DNA from: Neelides folsomi
Taxonomy: Eukaryota > Arthropoda > Collembola > Neelipleona > Neelidae
Direction: 5' to 3'
DNA length: 64,000 nt
Assembly: GCA_034687125.1 (NCBI GenBank)
Contig: JAQGBZ010000116.1
Span: 62,001-126,000, forward strand
Shown: one piece after another, positions 8,084 through 62,900 of the stretch
Position numbering within the stretch: position 1 is the stretch's first letter
Layout: each line of letters begins with the position of its first letter
The notes under the pieces: generated by a model
Told to the model about the DNA's origin: nothing
The model's input: only the letters and a program-made list of their open reading frames with translations
Databases searched by the model: none
Made by a program: the position numbers and the translations under genes

Positions 8084-11000
8084 TTTATGTTTTGATAATT
8101 ATTCATGTGACGGATGTCCAATTAATATTTTTGAAAATTTTATTTGAATAAGTACTCCAGCGGTCAAAATGCAACAAATGACTAAAGAGCATCGCTGCTT
8201 TTCAAGCAAGTCTAAAATCAATTAAAAGGCATTGTACAGTTTATAAAATTATAAATAATTTGATAATATCATTTAAGATAACAATGAATGATTAATAATT
8301 GCAAACAAGGATAACAATTAAAGATTGTTATAAACATACTTACCTTTATATTATACTTATCATGCGTAGATATTATATCCAATTATTAAATTTAATAGAA
8401 AAACTCAAGAAGAAAAGCTTAATGATTACTCATCTAAAGTTAAATTATCTCAACGAAATGTTTGGTGGATATTTTGTTAAAGATTAAAGAAGGAAGTGGC
8501 AAAAGTTCATTGATTGATAAGTATAGAATCAAAACTTTTAAATTGCTTATTATAAAGTAACGTTCTTAGATTTGAAAAATTTATAGTCATAATGTATGGA
8601 ATATATGAATTAATTAATATCAATTTAAAAAACTAATTGAAGAAAATGATAATGATGGAAGAAATCAGAAGAATGAAGAATTTGAGAGAAATCAGAGAAA
8701 TGTTGAAGAATAAAAATTGAAGATTTTGTGGAAATACGTTTTCGAATATTGGAAGGTTTGAGATTCTCAAGAACTAGAATCGACAACTTTGTTGAATCAA
8801 AATGAGTCAAAAGTGAGTTTGATCCTCAATAGCCCGAACTGCTTTATAAAATAATTAAAGTTCTAAAAAAAATTTACTAACATTAATTAAAATTTAGCAT
8901 TTACCATATTGGAAATTATGATACTGAATTATTTTATAATTTGTTATGTTTAAATTCTTTTATATCATACTCTTGTTTTCAAATATTAATAAGATGACGC
9001 CAAAGCCAAAATTGAACGTTTTTTTTCAAAACGAAATTTTTTTATAGTTCTAAGACAAATCTAAAGCTTAATCATTGTGAGTAATGATCATGGTCCATTT
9101 CCATTTGGGTTGGTGCTTAAACTCAATAATAATAAAAAAAAAAGAGTTTTCATACTCTTTCTGCCTATACTGTACACAATATCTTTCCATATAATACTTA
9201 TTTCGTATTGTAAAATTAAATGTTAAATTCTTATAGTAGAGGTCATGATTCTAGTCGGATAGCCGGATAGTAAATATCACCAAGTGGTCTTTATTTTCAA
9301 TCTCCACATCAATGTAATACTCAATTCCAATTTCCGTCTCGTATTTTATGGATTGGTGAGCAACGAGCTTTCATCCTATACTTATTACTTTATTACTGTT
9401 ATTCCCCGTTCATATTGCTTTACTCTAATTTATAATTTCAATTCGGGTTACTTATTTTAGAGTATGCGTAGTTTCTCTTTATAACCCTCGTATTACTCTC
9501 CTTTCTTTTATTGTAGGTATTACATAAGGATAGGGTCCATAGCATAGGGTATTACATACATAGTTCTTTCTTTCGTCTCTTTTCTACAGCTTTTCTCTCA
9601 CCAGCGAGAATTGCGTAACTGCCCTCATAAGCTCAAGGTAAGAGAGTCGGGAGTTTAAGAAATTAATTAAATTAATGAAACTGGGGTAGAAGTCACACGG
9701 TTGGGTGAAAGTATTAATGAAGTTTCTTCCAACGACTCTCATTCGCCTCAACTCATCATCAAAAGTTTTCCATGCGTAGGTTTGGGTATCAGATATTCAC
9801 TGAATGAGCCTATGTAATCAAGGTAGACACAACTATGATTTAAAACATCATTGAGATACAAATTATTTAGTCTAGAATAAATTGAGTATACAATACTCTA
9901 TTTATATAATATCGATATAGTAATCATATAGACTGATATCATACTTGTATAAACTTTAGTTACAGATATAATATGTTTACAAAATGTAGATACAACTACC
10001 ATAATATTTATATTAATATTAATGTGAAAAGTTTGCAGAAATGTTCGAAATTGTACAATTTGACCATACGTGTTATAATTGTAGACATTCGGATATGAGG
10101 CTATATTTATAGGAAATTTTAACTGTTTGGTATATAGGTAAGCATTAAAAGTGAAGAATTTAATTGTGATGTCTTCTTTTGGCCTAAAGCTCAAACTCGA
10201 CATTTCTCTCTCCAGAGTGCCATAAAGAGAAACGAATCTCGGAGTTGGCTTTTTCGCGAATCAGAGTTGAGAATTTTTCCTTCCTTCAGTTTCATTTCTC
10301 ATTTCATTACTTCTCGTTCTCTCTCCTTCTCTTTCTCTCTCACGATTGGAATCATATTATTTATTTGTGCGGAATTCTCTCATTCTTTACCTGATTTATA
10401 ATAATTTCAAACATCTGAAACATCTACTAGAATACGTTGAAAACAAGTAAGAATCCTAAGAATTTTCATTATAAAATACTTTACATAACAGAATAAAATA
10501 ACACTACATTGTGCACCCGCAACCAAGTGCCACTATCTCTGCCACCATTATACAATGCGTTTATTTATCAATACAAAATCCTACATTTAGTATGAGATCG
10601 CTATTTAAATCCTTAGATCTTTTAAAATTATATAAAATAATGTAGTTCTACATAAGTTTAAAATCTTCATCCATATCAGTATTATACAAGGATTTTGTAC
10701 TTTAAGATTGTCTTTAACTAGGAAAACCAATTTAATAATTCCATGCAATAATTAACTCCATTTTAACCTATACTGAACATCAATTTCTAATATATACTTA
10801 TTTCTAAAATACAAATCTCATAATCGCATTAAATACTAAACATTTTGCTGTCTTTCGCAGTTTACGATAAGAGTAGAAAATCTATTGTAATTTCCCATTA
10901 AATAATGTTGAATATATTTATTTCTGTAATACGGGATTAAAGATGAGATCACAGGTAGATATTTGAATAGGCAAGAAAGCTTATTTTATTAGTGTGAGCT

Positions 11001-17700: not shown

Positions 17701-20700
17701 TCACATGCTTGGGTTTGAGAATCTTCTTTTTTTAATAGGAACAACCATGTCGAGAGGGCCATTAGCCATCATAATCGCCTCCTCATCTTGGCCAGTTGGG
17801 AAGTCGGAGTAATCACAGATTTGATTCGGGTTGGGGTTCTTTCTCTTATTGACTCCAGTCGAGTTCTTCGGAATCAAATCTCCGCCGTTTCCATTGAACA
17901 GAAGCGAGTCTCCATTCTTGGGCTTGGCTCCTTCCTTCAACCATTTCATAACGACCCGGACATTGAGTCCGAATTTCCTGGCAACTCCTCTCGCATCTCC
18001 GGCCACTTCCGGATCATACGTGAAAGCGTCGAGCACAGCGTTCTTTTCCCCTTCTTGTGGGCTGATCTTCCCTCCTGCTTGACTCCCACGCCAATCATCA
18101 TGACCATTCTCAACCAAGAGTGGCGGGCTTTCAATGAATCCGTTTTTCTTCTTGCTCAGGTCCATTCCAGAATCCATCATTTCCTCATGCATGGACGGAA
18201 TTTCATGGAGGGACGAAGAATTGGAATTCACATGATTTGAGTTTGAGTGGTTGGAATAATCTAATTCTTGGTCTTCAATGGGCCGCGTGATTGTTGCCGT
18301 TCTATTGCCACCGTTCATTCCATTATTAGGATGTGTAATGCCATTGGATCCTTTGGGTTGTCTTTGTTTTCTCACGGCTCCTTTCTTCGTTCGCGGAATT
18401 GCGTCAAGCCTTGAAGCTGCCAGAGCTGCAGCGACTGTTTTGGCCGCTTTCCCATTACCGTTCTTTGGCGGAAGAACAAAGAGACTGTTTTGCCCCGAGT
18501 GATTGTTATTTGCTTTCTTCTTTCCTCCACCAGTTTGAATCCCAGCTGCAGCCATTGCATGATGAAGGGGATGAATCCACCCAGAATTACCGCCAAACTT
18601 CCCACCGCCTGAATTCTCCAAATTGAGGTCTGGAGCAAACAAGGAAAGATTTGTGGGGATGTTGAGGCCCGAATGATTCAATCCGCCTTGAAATAATTGT
18701 TGAAAAGTTTCATTTTGCTTTTTTAGCATTTCAAGCGTTTGGTGAGCAGTGAAGATTTCTGAATGGCGCGGAGTGTCTGTTGAATTCGATGAATTATTGG
18801 TGTTAAAACTGAAATTCCGACCATTGACCTTTTTTGGTGAGAGCTTCGTAAATGTGACTTCATTTTTTAGGATTGCCTTCCGAAGGAGTGAGAAGTCAGA
18901 GTTGGGATAAATGTACGAAAGCTCATCGACAATGTCCACAGGAAACGAGGAATATGAAGTAAAGTTGTTGCTGCTGTGATTGCTCCCGTTCCCAGGACTC
19001 GGGCTCGAGTTTTGTGAATGAAGGGATGGACCATTTAAGTATCCATTCGTGTTGTTGACGTTCGGTCCCGGTGGAGACATTAAAAGAGAAGAGGAGGCCT
19101 TTGGAGGCGAGGAATGAAGCGGTGAGGAACGTTCAGGGTTCTTGTGTAAGTTGAGTGCCAAGAGAATCGAGTAATCACGAGTGTAGTCATTGAGAGAATC
19201 ATCGGCCCTCTTTGACCCAATGAGCTGTGGGGGTGGAAGATGATGAACGACCGATTTCCCAGCTATAGGCATCGTACTCGGTGATGTTGAAGGCGAAGAG
19301 ATCAAATTCTCGCACCCATCACTTGGCTCTTCCTCTCCTTTCCCAGGACTCTGAAAAAATGAAAAATAATTAATACTAAATAATTAATTGGTATTAATCG
19401 TTTTAACAAAATAACTACAATACAAGGGGAATTCATTTAAATGAATTTGCCAAAGATGCAATAAGATACATTGTGTTGAAGACATTGTAGGAATTTTTTG
19501 TTTGATAGTTGAAAACAATAAAATGCGTCTTCAATTGACCGGGTGGTATTAGATTATTTTAGCAAATAATTAAGGAATTGCTAAAGCTTAAGGCTTATTA
19601 TAATTTAACTCTATCTTTAAACAAGAAAGTTTCATACTTTGGGTATTAATGTATTGGGTAAATATGGCTAAATATAAGATTTTATCAGGGTCGAGCAGAT
19701 TAACTAAAATTTCCATTATGACTAAACCTTCTTCATGAACTTCCATGTGCCTTTAAAACGCAAAAGTTGAAGTTGTGAAAACAAAAATAAAGCAGTGTAT
19801 GTAAACTTTTTCTTGATCATAAGAATGACTCACCAACAACTTTTCGTTTATAGATAATTTTGATAATGTTCAGCCAATAAGAGCTATTGATTTGACAGTT
19901 GACTATAATAAACTCGATTGGTTTTTATGAAACTTGTGACACATTCAAAGAAATAATATCATATAATGAAATCTTACATGAAACACGATGTTCTCGAAAA
20001 TGATTTCAAGTTCGGACTGTTCGAATTCGGACATTAAAAATGTTGGCAATTCAAAATAAGTGGGTTATCAAAATAATGTTGAGGATGAATGTTTCAATTG
20101 TATCACTTAAAATTAAGCTTCGTTCTATAATTAAGTTAATATCAATGATAAGCATTTTACGACAATCAAAATTTTGTCAAATTAAAAAATTAAACTGATG
20201 GTGAAATACTGACATTCTGACATTGAATAAAAAAATAAAAAAGAGAAGTGGTAACGAATATTTAAATATTACAATCATAACAGGATCTATCTTCAAATAA
20301 AATATTTGTCTCATAATTAACCTCTATTATAATTTGTCTGATATTCGATCTTGTTTTACCATAAGTTTTATATTTATATAAAAGAGTAATAGTAAATATA
20401 TTTAAATAAGTATTTGTATAATATGTACTTTATCCATAAATCCGATAATTAGGGAGGACGCAAATCGCATTCAAATACTAATAAATACATAGCAAGGTGA
20501 TTTCTTCGCTAGTTAAATTCAATTCAATTTTTCAAAATTCTATCCGAATAGCATGAAAGTGAAAGTATGTATCTTTACAATCTCAATCTCAATGCAGAAC
20601 ATATCTATTTAACATAGGGTTTGTATGTGTTTACGAATGCGAATGTGACAGGTAAATTGTAAATTTAATTTAATTAGTATATAACAATCCTGAATAATTT

Positions 20701-23163
20701 ATGATTCCAATGTTTTTCTTTATTTTGATTGAGTTTTTGGATGATTTAATATTCCAAATTAATCCAACTTTAGCAAAAAAAATCAAACCTTTGATGTGTG
20801 AAATAGGAGAAAGCACTTGAAGTGGCTTAAATCTTGAATTTCTCAGTGAATCTCCATTGTCACAAGGTGAATGGCGAGGAAATGAGAAGGACGGCTTTTT
20901 TATAATATGTGAAGTAGGAAGAGATTTGGTAAAACAACTAACGCTCTCCCGAAAATGAAAACACGGCGTAGGTAAGGGGGAGAGAAATTTGATGTGTGTA
21001 TGTTCGTAATGTATCTGCGTGTTTGAGAAAGGCGGAGGGTGAATAAGTTGCGTGTGTGTGAGCGAGTGTGTGGAGGGTTCCTTATTCACTTTTATCAGAT
21101 CTCCGAGACCTTGACTCACATCATGTGGGAGCGAAGTTGGTTCTCCCTGGTTATTCCTCACCCGCCTTCCTCAACAATCGAACCCGGGGAGGAGAAGGGG
21201 GTAAATGGTCTCCTGAGGAGGAGCAGGAGGAGAAGGAGCGGGGAGAAGAGGTCCGGAGATTCCTCGAATGGCGGAAGGCACTTGTTTAGGGAAGAGGAGT
21301 CTCCTCCATTGTTGGGGTGGGCGGGTGAAGGTGAGATTATGCAATCGACTTGTGTTAGGTCATGCAGCTCCCCTCTCAGACCCCTTAAAGGACTCTGAAG
21401 AGACTCTGAAGACTTACCTTCCCTAATGTACCCTCCTCACCGCGACGAAAGTCAAAAAAACGGACCCCTCATCTCATACAGCCAAACTTCTTCATAAACA
21501 TTGAGCGAGAAGTAAAAAAAGAGGAGCAAGAAGTTGGGCCAACGCTAATGGTTATATCCATTCCGTCCAAGTACCTCCAACTGCATCTCTACACACTTGT
21601 GCATTTTTATGCGTGGATGTGGCAGGGAAGGAAAAATACAGAAAGATGCTATATTTATTTATATGCCTCCGAGACTTGACTCCTTCAGCATCAATAGGCG
21701 AAGGAAACCCTATTGTTATCCCTTTGCTGCATAAATTACAAGAACGGAGTTGAGCATAAATATTAATAGATTTATGTCTCTAGTTAGAACTCAAGAAACA
21801 TTCACATTGAAAAATATTAACTTGATCCTTTGAATGAAAAATCACGAGTTTCCGTTTACCATAAAAATGGGTTCTTGGCTTATTCATGAAAGGCATTGCA
21901 ATTACCATTTAAGATTATTAATTATTAATATCGTATTTAGTATGAAACTTTGCACATTGCCCTATCTTAATAGGGAGCAAAGCTAATGATACCCATAACT
22001 GTAATATATGTATAATGTAGCGCCTATACTATAGTCATAATCTAACACAAGTGTCATTCTACAAGTAAATGTTAAAAGAAATGTTGCTTCGCCTTTTTGA
22101 ATATAAAGTAAATGGTGTTGGTAAAGTTAGATAAAGTGTAAAGCCATGAGTGTATCATTTCAATTTTTCAATGTGTTACATATTGCAAGAGCAATAATCT
22201 TCGTACGTGAAGGTTTTAAGATTTCTATTATCAGACACAATTCATATCTAGTTTTGTTTTCCATTCTTTCATTGGTTCAACTTCCGATTCTGTAAAATCC
22301 CTCTTTGGCTCTCCTTCCACAAGTTGTGATCCCAAGGATGAGTCCATGGTACATCCATGGATCCTTTTACCCTCTTTAAGCGCATAGGCTTCTTCCAACG
22401 GGTATCTAGTATCCATTCGTACACGTTCCTCTTTTTAATACTTCTTTCTACGTCTTTCTACCCTCATGGCTCGTTTTTCGTCCCTAAACAACTTAAGATA
22501 TCTCTACCTGATAAGACGAACTAAGGGATGGAGAGGGGATGTAGCCAATTTTCATATTTTACCAAATATCTGGCATGCTTATGTTTCCTATTACTTAAAA
22601 CTTAAAAGCCTACTTTGGAAATTCCTATCCATATGGGATATAATTGAAATTAACATATTCCTCAGGTTTAGTAGATACTAAACTCTTTTCTTTAATAGAT
22701 ACGTATATTGTAAATTACTTTTATCATATTTACACTTTTAAATAATAATAGCGAAAGAGGAAATGAATTAAAAAGATTTGTATTGATAATAAATAATATT
22801 TTTACTGTATGGATTTTAATATACCTTGAGCATTGAATCTCCAGTTTTTATTTCATTTTCATCCTCATTATTGTCAAGTGGTGTGTCCGATTGCTGAAGC
22901 CATTTTTGTACTTGTCTTCGATGAATGTTGAACTTCCTGGCTGTCGCTCGCTGGTTTCCAACACAGTCCGGGTCGGATGTGAAGGCTTCGAGGACAGCGG
23001 CTTTGAATTGGGGAGTGAAGATTCGCCTACTGGTCATATTGTGACTTCGACCTTGATCCTCCCTCTTTTCTTCGCTCTCACTCGACGTCTTCTTTGGGCG
23101 ATTGGAAGACCGAGTTTTTCTTTTTCCTTCCCCACCCGAACCAACGTTCGCTTCTTCACTCAT
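17701..23163 (-). CDS. brk: Brinker-like transcriptional regulator with two BrkDBD domains, 2 coding exons
   Basis: In flies Brinker is the repressor of Dpp/BMP target genes and binds DNA through a small helix-turn-helix BrkDBD. Exon 1 (22825-23163, 113 codons) starts at the first in-frame ATG. It carries a near-canonical BrkDBD at residues about 45-91, with TSRRIFTPQFKAAVLEAF, GNQRATARKFNIHRRQVQKW and surrounding NLS-like basic stretches. Exon 2 (17701-19350, 549 codons plus stop) joins in phase 0 across a 3474-bp GT-AG intron, giving about 662 aa. Most of exon 2 is low-complexity Ser/Asn/Gly/Pro. It contains an MDLSKKK segment resembling the PxDLS CtBP-binding motif, and a second, diverged BrkDBD at about residues 541-587 (AVLDAFTYDPEVAGDARGVA, RKFGLNVRVVMKWLKEG). 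A C-terminal PIKKRRF looks like an NLS. Two BrkDBDs in one protein is unlike fly Brinker. The alternative is two overlapping transcription units. Confidence 0.85.
17930..18075 (-). other. Second, diverged Brinker-type DNA-binding domain (BrkDBD2)
   Basis: Sub-feature of the Brinker-like CDS. It aligns with the N-terminal domain as VLxAFxxDPxxxGxxRxxARKFxxxxRxVxKWL. The Arg-rich turn IHRRQVQ of domain 1 is replaced by LNVRVVM, so several likely DNA-contacting side chains differ. Approximate limits. Confidence 0.75.
19351..22824 (-). other. Large intron of the Brinker-like gene with GC-richer segments
   Basis: The 3.47 kb intron is bounded by a GTATAT donor after exon 1 and a polypyrimidine CAG acceptor before exon 2. 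Most is AT-rich. A GC-richer, purine-skewed block at about 21000-21600 (plus strand AGGAGGAGCAGGAGGAGAAG-type sequence) stands out, and another frame-bearing stretch lies at 22231-22416 (minus). No family-recognisable exon was found, though a good minus-strand donor (GTAAGT) sits at 21412-21417. Confidence 0.5.
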
Positions 23164-59924: not shown

Positions 59925-62900
59925 TCATGTGTCTTCTTCTTTTATAATCCCGAGTCTCGCAGCGACTTGTTTAACGGAATTAATGACTTCTTCTTGCACC
60001 AGATTGAAACTCATTGCGAGGAGTGATATACCAAAAAGTAAATAGAGAGAACACAATGCAATACTAATCTGAAAAGCCATTAAAAAATTTACATAATAAA
60101 ATCAAGATTTTAATAGGCACTTTTAATAACTTGTCATAAATTACTAACCTATAATAATTTATGCCAATATTGTGAATATTACCTCAGGATCATTTTGTAC
60201 TCTTTGAGCAGGGACAAAATCCCCAAATCCAATCGTCGTAAGAGTGATGAAGCAAAAGTATGCCGAGTCAAGAAAATTCCAATGTTCCCATCCATTGAAT
60301 AAAAATGCACCAAATAGGATATAACTGCAGAACGAATAATCAAATTAAAGTTAATATGCATTTTTATGCATATTAACTTAACATATGCATAAAGCTGTAT
60401 TTAACATACTTATATTAATATATAGAATATAATATTAAATTTAAATGTACTTTGTCAAATAAATTTCATTCTTGAATATAAAATTTAAATAATTTTTATA
60501 TCCCACAAATATTTTTTAAATGTGTTAATAATAGTTTAAAGAATAAAAGAATGTTGACCTTAAAACTAAGAAAACGCATAACCAAATGGGAACAGGACGA
60601 CTCCCTGGATCTTCCTCATAATAATCATCTTCCTCGTCCCAATAATCGTCGTACGCCTATTTATATAATCATAATTTCAATTTCACATCCAATTGGTGGT
60701 GCATTCATGTAATGGAGATAACTTTTTAAAAGCATTCTTAATCAATATCTTCATTACATAAAATGACCTTATGATTTATAAACTCTTGAGTAGTAAAATG
60801 AACTCTTCTAATGCTTATAATAAAATGTAAATGGGGATAATAATATAGAGTTTTACAACGTAGTGTTCTTGAGGTCGAATTCGAGAGAGACGGAGAGATC
60901 TCCGAACTTCTGATTCATCTGTAACGACCATATGGGCGTCTTCAGCATATTTGTTGCATAAAATTGGCAAAGTTTGAAAGTTGGGTGGCCCTGTGAAGAA
61001 AGGATCTGCAGAGCGAGATGATCTCTAAATGAAATCGGAAAATAAGCATGAGTTATTATTTAAATGCATATCATTTATCAGGGATATAAAGTTAATTGAT
61101 AAATTCATTAAAGTTTAAACTGGACCTTTAAATTTCAATAATAGCCTCTTCCAAAATATACCTACTGGTTTACTATAGGTAATGTTAAATGAATGAAACA
61201 ATTCCGAGGTTTGGGTAAATTGGTTGAGTCAATTTGTATTTAATGTGAGGTGACATTGGAAAACATTATATGGAACTCTCTAAATATAACATTAATTTGT
61301 GCATATGATCATATTCAAACAATGTTTGCTCAAATTCTTCCTATCACCCCCTCATTATTGGCAGGGTGAGAATTTGGCGTATCTATTTCAATGTCTTTTG
61401 AAGACAATTTCATACAATACTACACGGTATATTACATTGCATGGTTGTTTTAAGTTGCTGGTGGGAGAAGCTATCTCAATATCAATGTGAACTAAATGTA
61501 AAGGAAGAGTCTATTTAGTGGCAAAGTAATATGAATTATATGAAGGTGAAGGTGAAGGCATTAAAAGTTTAAAAGTACAAGTTTCATCGACCCGGAAAAA
61601 GGCCATGTTGAGAATACCCTGGCCGCCTTCTTCGCGGTCAAAGCATTGAAGGTAGGAAGTGAAGGAGGGCAACCTCGAATGCAGGATAAGGACAAGGACA
61701 ATCCTTGGCCAACTTTGGGAAATCATACCGGAATTACTATCACACCCCTACATAATAAACTCCTCAGCCAGTGGAAACTACATTAGCCAATTAGTAAACA
61801 TAAATGATATTTGATATATATTAACTTTAATACAATTTATTTAAATATTTAAATTCGTAGAAAATACTTTCATAATACACCATGGAATATTTTATGCTTG
61901 TTTAATATGAACTTAAATGAAGTATATTGGCACTTTATAATACTAATAATTTTAACTGTTTTAAAAAGCATTTGGATCACTGCATCAACATATTACATTG
62001 TACTTTTTTCCCAATTTTGGAACAAGACATTATTTCATAAATTCATAATACTTGATTGGAGGAAGATTTAATAATTTGATTAATAATCCCACCTGTGTGC
62101 TTCTATTTGTCGTGAGTTGTGCTGATTGTTTAATCGTTCCCTGTGGGTTCCTTGGCAGTGTGGCATTTGGGCTCTTTAAGCTTCCATGACCGGTCCGACC
62201 AAGGAAGAGATTCTCTTCCGAATGGACTCTCCTGCCCAATACAAACCCAAGTCAACAACATGTTTATCTCCAAATGCCGGGGAGGAAATGGGTTAGAAGA
62301 AGCCTTGGCCGTGTTGTGGAGGCCTTCAGTCTACCGAAGATCCCTCGGCTTTCCACTTTAGACATTGAAGTACCTGAACACAGGGTCGGAGTTGGCTGAA
62401 AGAACCGAGTCAGTCAATGCTGAGTCGGCCGACCGTTGGCTCACACGTCCCGACCTACGAATTGACCTTCTCATCCCGCGGCTGCTCCTGAAAACAAAAT
62501 CTCTTTTCATATCCTTCCCTACTCGCCCATTTCTACAATTTGCTAACCTCCATAAATACTCATACGGATATTGTAAAGGCTTTATCATTCACATTGTTTT
62601 CCTCATTTTCAAACTTGTACTTGGATAGCATTTATCACCTTTACATTATTTAACCAATGTCAAATTAAATGATATTTGTTCCACTTGTGTGTGATTTACG
62701 TTACAAATGGTAATGAATTGATTACACACTGTTTTATCTTAAATATTTACAAATATTTTATAATTTATTATTTTTAATAAATACAATCATTCATTTGTAT
62801 TTGAGATTAAATTGACACAAATGTACAGACCTGTATAAAAAGATATTATGAAACAAAAAGCTTACCCAGAATGTTTTGATGAAGAAGACCTGTGACTTCG

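Follow-up and report, generated by a model that had tools for sequence, protein, structure and literature searches.

A two-exon Brinker-like gene predicted to carry a canonical and a diverged Brinker-type domain

Results

Organization of the Brinker-like locus

The window analyzed here, a stretch of 64,000 nucleotides (nt) spanning positions 62001–126000 of contig C116 in an assembly of 75.1 Mb and 840 contigs, contains a Brinker-like gene on its minus strand. Joining the two exons of the gene, 23163–22825 and 19350–17701, in phase 0 gives a translated protein of 662 residues, which bears a canonical Brinker DNA-binding domain near its N-terminus (domain 1) and a diverged relative of it near its C-terminus (domain 2). 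The in-phase junction had been proposed in a first-pass annotation of the window, and both its coordinates and its reading proved correct. The elements of the gene are listed below in the direction of transcription, with positions referring to the window.

22825..23163, minus strand: exon 1, 339 nt, 113 codons, phase 0 at its 3' end; ATG at 23163; bears domain 1
22894..23031, minus strand: domain 1, canonical Brinker DNA-binding domain, residues 45–90 (from Pfam, the PDB and AlphaFold2)
22828..22848, minus strand: KTGDSML tail motif at the end of exon 1, aligning with KNGDSLL
19351..22824, minus strand: intron, 3,474 nt, GT...AG; junction in phase, with breaks in GC content and codon bias at both ends
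17701..19350, minus strand: exon 2, 1,650 nt, 549 codons plus stop (17703–17701); a low-complexity linker, then domain 2
17932..18069, minus strand: domain 2, diverged Brinker-type domain, residues about 541–586 (from homology to domain 1)
17899..17919, minus strand: KNGDSLL tail motif behind domain 2, aligning with KTGDSML

The splice donor reads AAG/GTATAT after 22825 and the acceptor TTTTTTCAG/ before 19350 (the slash marks the exon boundary). Reading past the donor of exon 1 meets a stop after two further codons, and upstream of the acceptor the frame of exon 2 stays open for 11 codons only. Across the donor, the GC content drops from 38.5% over the final 78 nt of exon 1 to 19% over the 78 nt that follow; across the acceptor it rises from 19% to 51% in flanks of the same length. 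Codon bias was scored with a model for which ten further long frames in the window, chosen by length, served as the training set; when seven of these frames, or near equals of them, were scanned with Pfam, two had a family at E 0.01. The score per codon is +0.349 for exon 1 (+0.34 for its last 20 codons) and +0.303 for exon 2, with +0.449 for the 26 codons ahead of the first methionine of exon 2 and −0.241 for the 11 codons preceding the acceptor, and the highest-scoring window of the whole gene falls at domain 2. Since all 26 codons between the acceptor and the first methionine of exon 2 look like coding sequence, an upstream exon appears to be needed. Together, the breaks in codon bias and GC content fit a single gene that would be spliced in vivo.

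Domain 1 is a Brinker DNA-binding domain

Exon 1 matches the Pfam family BrkDBD (PF09607) with 78.2 bits (E = 4.3e-22), and domain 1 carries the GNQRATARK...HRRQ.QKWLQ signature near the N-terminus of the protein. Its match to the structure of fly Brinker in the PDB (2glo; E = 3.8e-18) comprises 35 identical residues out of 46 without gaps, and an AlphaFold2 model of domain 1, for which domain 2 was the sole other alignment row, superimposes on 2glo with a root-mean-square deviation (rmsd) of 0.8 Å over 45 columns. Fly Brinker has one DNA-binding domain, together with docking motifs for CtBP and Groucho; its structure is reportedly the work of Cordier (2006), and its corepressors are said to have been studied by Hasson (2001). 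Like the present protein, Drosophila Brinker (brk; 2glo is its DNA-binding domain with the omb enhancer) is a long chain of mostly low complexity with its domain near the N-terminus; the present protein adds a second domain near the C-terminus, so it departs from the single-domain architecture of the fly protein.

The BrkDBD family also occurs outside Brinker. According to passages of PMC7386202, Passer transposases carry BrkDBD, and Passer/pogo and POGK combine it with HTH_Tnp_Tc5 and DDE_1. In a whole-genome search for BrkDBD that listed six places, the five other than domain 1 scored between 25.6 and 38 bits. Of these five, the three whose translations could be judged, L002 (contig C594), L004 (C186) and L005 (C92), were rejected as further copies of Brinker, their domains being of transposase type by eye; L004 continues into a transposase-like frame, again by eye. 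Domain 1 aligns with fly Brinker at a score of 193 and with three transposase-type domains from the assembly at 58, 40 and 49, the alignments with L002 and L005 needing 5 gap positions. The 662-residue protein shares the BrkDBD family with Passer/pogo and POGK, but a Pfam scan of it to E 10 (seven rows) returned neither a DDE nor an HTH_Tnp_Tc5 family. When the whole protein was searched against the assembly in six frames, the best candidates were the two exons themselves and a third place at the level of chance (E = 0.45). Matches to the search pattern in IMG/VR (14 stretches) and in GTDB contigs (135) yielded no confirmed case, as expected for an animal gene.

Domain 2 is related to domain 1

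Over residues 549–586, domain 2 is identical to domain 1 at 20 of 38 positions in an ungapped alignment, and the only proline is common to both. The alignment of domain 1 with exon 2 scores 105, against a maximum of 47 among 2000 shuffles of exon 2, none of which did as well, and blastp relates the two domains with E = 7e-14. A search of the PDB with the sequence of domain 2 returned fly Brinker (2glo) in the first row (E = 0.0052); the two align over 37 columns without a gap with a score of 71, compared with at most 39 for the three transposase-type domains. The likeness also runs beyond the domains into the common K-x-G-D-S-x-L motif, which the earlier annotation had omitted. Its proposal of a second BrkDBD-like domain near the C-terminus is thus borne out by the shuffles, by blastp and by the match to 2glo.

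Two results qualify this assignment. Taken alone, domain 2 stays below the Pfam BrkDBD cut-off of 23.4 bits, at 13.6 bits when exon 2 is scanned and 17.2 bits when the query is trimmed, and it is not among the six places listed in the whole-genome BrkDBD search. The first-pass annotation had named the Pfam BrkDBD search as a check and the lack of a significant match in the C-terminal segment as grounds for abandoning its claim: the search recovers domain 1 and misses domain 2, so that no such match exists at the Pfam cut-off, whereas one does exist when domain 2 is compared with domain 1 directly. Judged by its sequence, domain 2 is a copy of the domain 1 module, K-x-G-D-S-x-L tail included.

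The copy looks old, because third codon positions agree between the domains at just 16 of the 38 codons. Nonsynonymous divergence (dN) is 0.43, and the NG86 method gave no value for synonymous divergence (dS); at the 20 common residues, identical codons are used 10 times, compared with the 7.45 expected from codon usage. Domain 1 departs from the fly sequence at 10 of 37 positions, and at these domain 2 agrees with domain 1 in seven cases and with the fly in none, which suggests either that the duplication postdates the divergence of the fly lineage or that the fly sequence is derived. Drift from domain 1 was simulated in sets of 2000 runs: with divergence set to 0.25, 0.33, 0.5 and 0.65 substitutions per site, the share of runs that kept at least 20 of the 38 residues was 86%, 46%, 5% and 0.2%, respectively, and at 0.8 no run did. 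Neutral drift of domain 2 is disfavoured by this comparison.

Domain 2 is predicted to keep the fold and change the surface

The AlphaFold2 model of domain 2 has three helices, with predicted local distance difference test (pLDDT) scores of 82–92 in the core blocks. A Foldseek search with this model placed fly Brinker first among 350,542 chains (probability 1.00, rmsd 2.1 Å, E = 0.14); in VIA-align, 2glo was not the top match and ranked eighth. The residues that domain 2 retains are unevenly spread, with 9 of 14 in the scaffold stretch, 6 of 10 in the GNQRATARKF stretch and 5 of 12 in the recognition stretch, which reads NIHRRQVQKWLQ in domain 1 and GLNVRVVMKWLK in domain 2. Several positions of the recognition stretch now hold hydrophobic residues (R→V, Q→V and Q→M), and the net charge goes from +6 in domain 1 (46 residues) to +2 in domain 2 (49 residues). 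Lys-Trp-Leu and the ARKF stretch are retained, and changes in the likely hydrophobic core appear mild by eye. The HRR stretch was earlier described as lost from the second copy; the recognition stretch has indeed changed, but HRR aligns with NVR and one arginine stays. With the core kept and the face swapped, the simplest account of domain 2 is that it still functions but acts on a different target, be it DNA or protein, and on our reading of the model it would fold as a helix-turn-helix with a rebuilt recognition face.

Repression motifs and the BMP pathway

Two short motifs of exon 2 bear on a possible role in repression.

18148..18168, minus strand: GMDLSKK, weak CtBP-like motif, residues 508–514, ahead of domain 2
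17722..17733, minus strand: KKRR, possible nuclear localization signal near the C-terminus (by pattern)

The MDLS sequence had been likened to a CtBP-docking site just before domain 2. Its position is as described, but GMDLSKK lacks the proline and is weak, the relaxed CtBP pattern that it matches turning up in 85 of 5000 shuffles as well. Neither a strict PxDLS nor the Groucho-type motifs FKPY, WRPW and eh1 were found in the 662-residue protein, which thereby differs from Drosophila Brinker with respect to PxDLS, FKPY and WRPW. In the fly, brk is repressed by Dpp through silencers of the form GRCGNC-N5-GTCTG, and Brinker itself binds sites of the GGCGYY type. No such silencer occurs in the window at up to one mismatch (0.73 expected), and of the 56 exact matches in the genome, compared with 34 for a reversed control pattern, none lies on contig C116; TGGCGYY sites show no enrichment, with 4 against an expectation of 6.84. 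Of the earlier description of the gene as a repressor of the bone morphogenetic protein (BMP) pathway, the Brinker-type homology holds, and no fly-type Dpp silencer of this form was found in the window or elsewhere on the contig. Orthology to Brinker suggests that the protein may act as a nuclear repressor in that pathway.

The intron

A further feature lies within the intron.

20850..21600, minus strand: GC-rich island, 39–57% GC in 150-nt steps of the profile, against 21–31% on either side

The island has a single place in the genome and might serve as an enhancer, as an alternative promoter or as an untranslated exon; codon bias in the open reading frames within it is weak (+0.09 to +0.21), and a TATA-like stretch was seen by eye toward its 3' side. 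Elsewhere in the intron, a minus-strand frame of 67 codons (22434–22234) has a coding-like codon bias of +0.21, rising to +0.45 in part, and might be a cassette exon; the stretch 22200–22560 that covers it likewise has one genomic place.

Host genome

Several features of the assembly were noted alongside the locus. The mitochondrial contig (C742; 15,157 bp) has trnL(taa), i.e. trnL2, between cox1 and cox2, in a gene order that we take to be the pancrustacean ground pattern, and COX1 presumably resembles that of springtails; a stretch of about 380 bp without a gene, containing a short direct repeat, lies between nad1 and trnS(tga) at about 9710–10092 (L012/L013). Eight Hox genes, named by eye as lab, pb, Hox3, Dfd, Scr, ftz, Antp and Ubx, run in the same direction on one contig (C20, 97–382 kb, about 285 kb), with abd-A separate on C93. 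The tail of Ubx (L019, C20:97236–97412) reads QAQAAKVAAVVAAQQ; in this QAQAAK tail the alanine stretch is broken by valines (AAVVAAQQ), a state that seems intermediate to those portrayed for springtails and insects in sections of PMC7616481. The same sections place the QAQA domain of Ubx in insects, proturans, diplurans and springtails, with serine/threonine sites in crustaceans, and describe springtails as being without poly-alanine; they make no claim that QAQA is missing from crustaceans. The first-pass annotation had treated the host as a crustacean; with a QAQA-type Ubx tail leaning toward hexapods on that account, a non-insect hexapod seems more likely, a springtail being the first candidate.

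In a search for oxygenase genes of the springtail type, the family PF14226 occurred at eight places, and the two loci read by eye revealed no clear isopenicillin-N-synthase. The start of contig C282 and the end of C4 share about the first 70 bases of 18S rRNA and a similar spacer, as in a ribosomal DNA array broken in assembly. Within the window, 80 of 99 frames of at least 66 codons (the 99 remaining from 165 after overlaps were thinned) were scanned with Pfam and gave 11 families at E 0.001, including Cas1_AcylT, an ion channel, a glutamate-receptor ligand-binding domain, CBM_14, C2, Brix, RRF and Abhydrolase_2.

Discussion

We favor, at a probability of about 0.6, the interpretation that the locus is a single spliced Brinker orthologue in which domain 2 is an old copy, still folded but re-surfaced, that would give the protein a second contact. 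Domain 1 would recognize Brinker sites in the manner of its fly counterpart. Domain 2, placed about 450 residues away across a mostly low-complexity linker, would most likely provide a second, weaker or differently specific contact, be it with a neighboring DNA site, a partner protein or a second Brinker molecule, and the choice of targets would then hang on paired contacts instead of on one site. Two related helix-turn-helix domains in one chain are also found in double homeodomain proteins (DUX4 is among the Foldseek rows for domain 1), though this is an analogy only: the families are different, and here the two domains are far apart and strongly unequal.

The alternatives differ in which part of this interpretation they dispute. 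The gene model would fail if the locus were two transcription units, one encoding a 115-residue domain 1 protein that ends two codons past the donor, the other a separate domain 2 gene or isoform starting in the intron island. The island could hold a promoter, which could equally coexist with the joined transcript, and exon 2 has internal methionine codons; against this, the exon phases match, and the sharp changes in codon bias and GC content across the acceptor argue for an exon boundary there, and we regard two units as improbable. Descent of both domains from a pogo/Passer-type transposase has the presence of BrkDBD in Passer transposases (as given in the passages of PMC7386202 cited above) and of such frames in this genome in its favor. 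It is contradicted for domain 1, whose score against fly Brinker far exceeds those against the transposase-type domains, and the protein lacks the transposase families in the Pfam scan; we consider this origin next to impossible.

Other alternatives accept the gene and dispute what domain 2 is now. It might be a decaying relic, an old duplicate drifting in a C-terminal region tolerant of change by virtue of its low complexity, and at low divergence (0.25–0.33 substitutions per site) simulated drift does often retain the observed identity. At 0.5 and beyond it rarely does, and the poor agreement at third codon positions, the 38 gap-free columns with their shared proline and the coincidence of the peak in codon bias with domain 2 all speak for constraint, so that there is little chance of a relic. 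A more serious contender, although still a minority prospect, is that domain 2 has kept its helix-turn-helix fold, has given up DNA binding and now mediates protein contacts in dimerization or corepressor docking; the hydrophobic replacements among the recognition residues and the lowered net charge point that way, whereas the retained recognition arginine, Lys-Trp-Leu and ARKF stretch point the other way. Finally, the two-domain form may be ordinary for the host lineage, for example for all springtails or all non-insect hexapods, and simply uncommented in print. As the duplication looks old by its third codon positions, relatives should share domain 2, and we put an ordinary two-domain form at even odds.

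Brinker is presented in part of PMC4362205 as a factor confined to arthropods whose binding site is unique, and an excerpt of PMC7128011 mentions a spider transcriptome with no BLAST match for Brinker. In the portions of open-licence papers covered by our search, Brinker orthologues outside insects hardly appear, and no two-domain Brinker was found in the open-licence PubMed Central (PMC) text that was covered. The first-pass annotation had spoken of a possible undescribed two-headed repressor; one Brinker-type gene with two related domains, and nothing like it in that literature, is what our analysis upholds, and the change of function is a proposal that we carry forward from sequence and model.

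On the interpretation that we favor, a clear orthologue with an intramolecular copy of its own DNA-binding module would constitute a natural experiment in how a repressor that reads the BMP gradient acquires another contact, and the nature of that contact could be addressed directly using two short purified domains. More speculatively, and in our estimation rather unlikely, a non-insect hexapod lineage may have duplicated the module to yield a two-headed Brinker whose second head has a different DNA specificity and whose targets are pairs of unlike sites. If true, this would be a change of specificity within the read-out of the BMP gradient itself.

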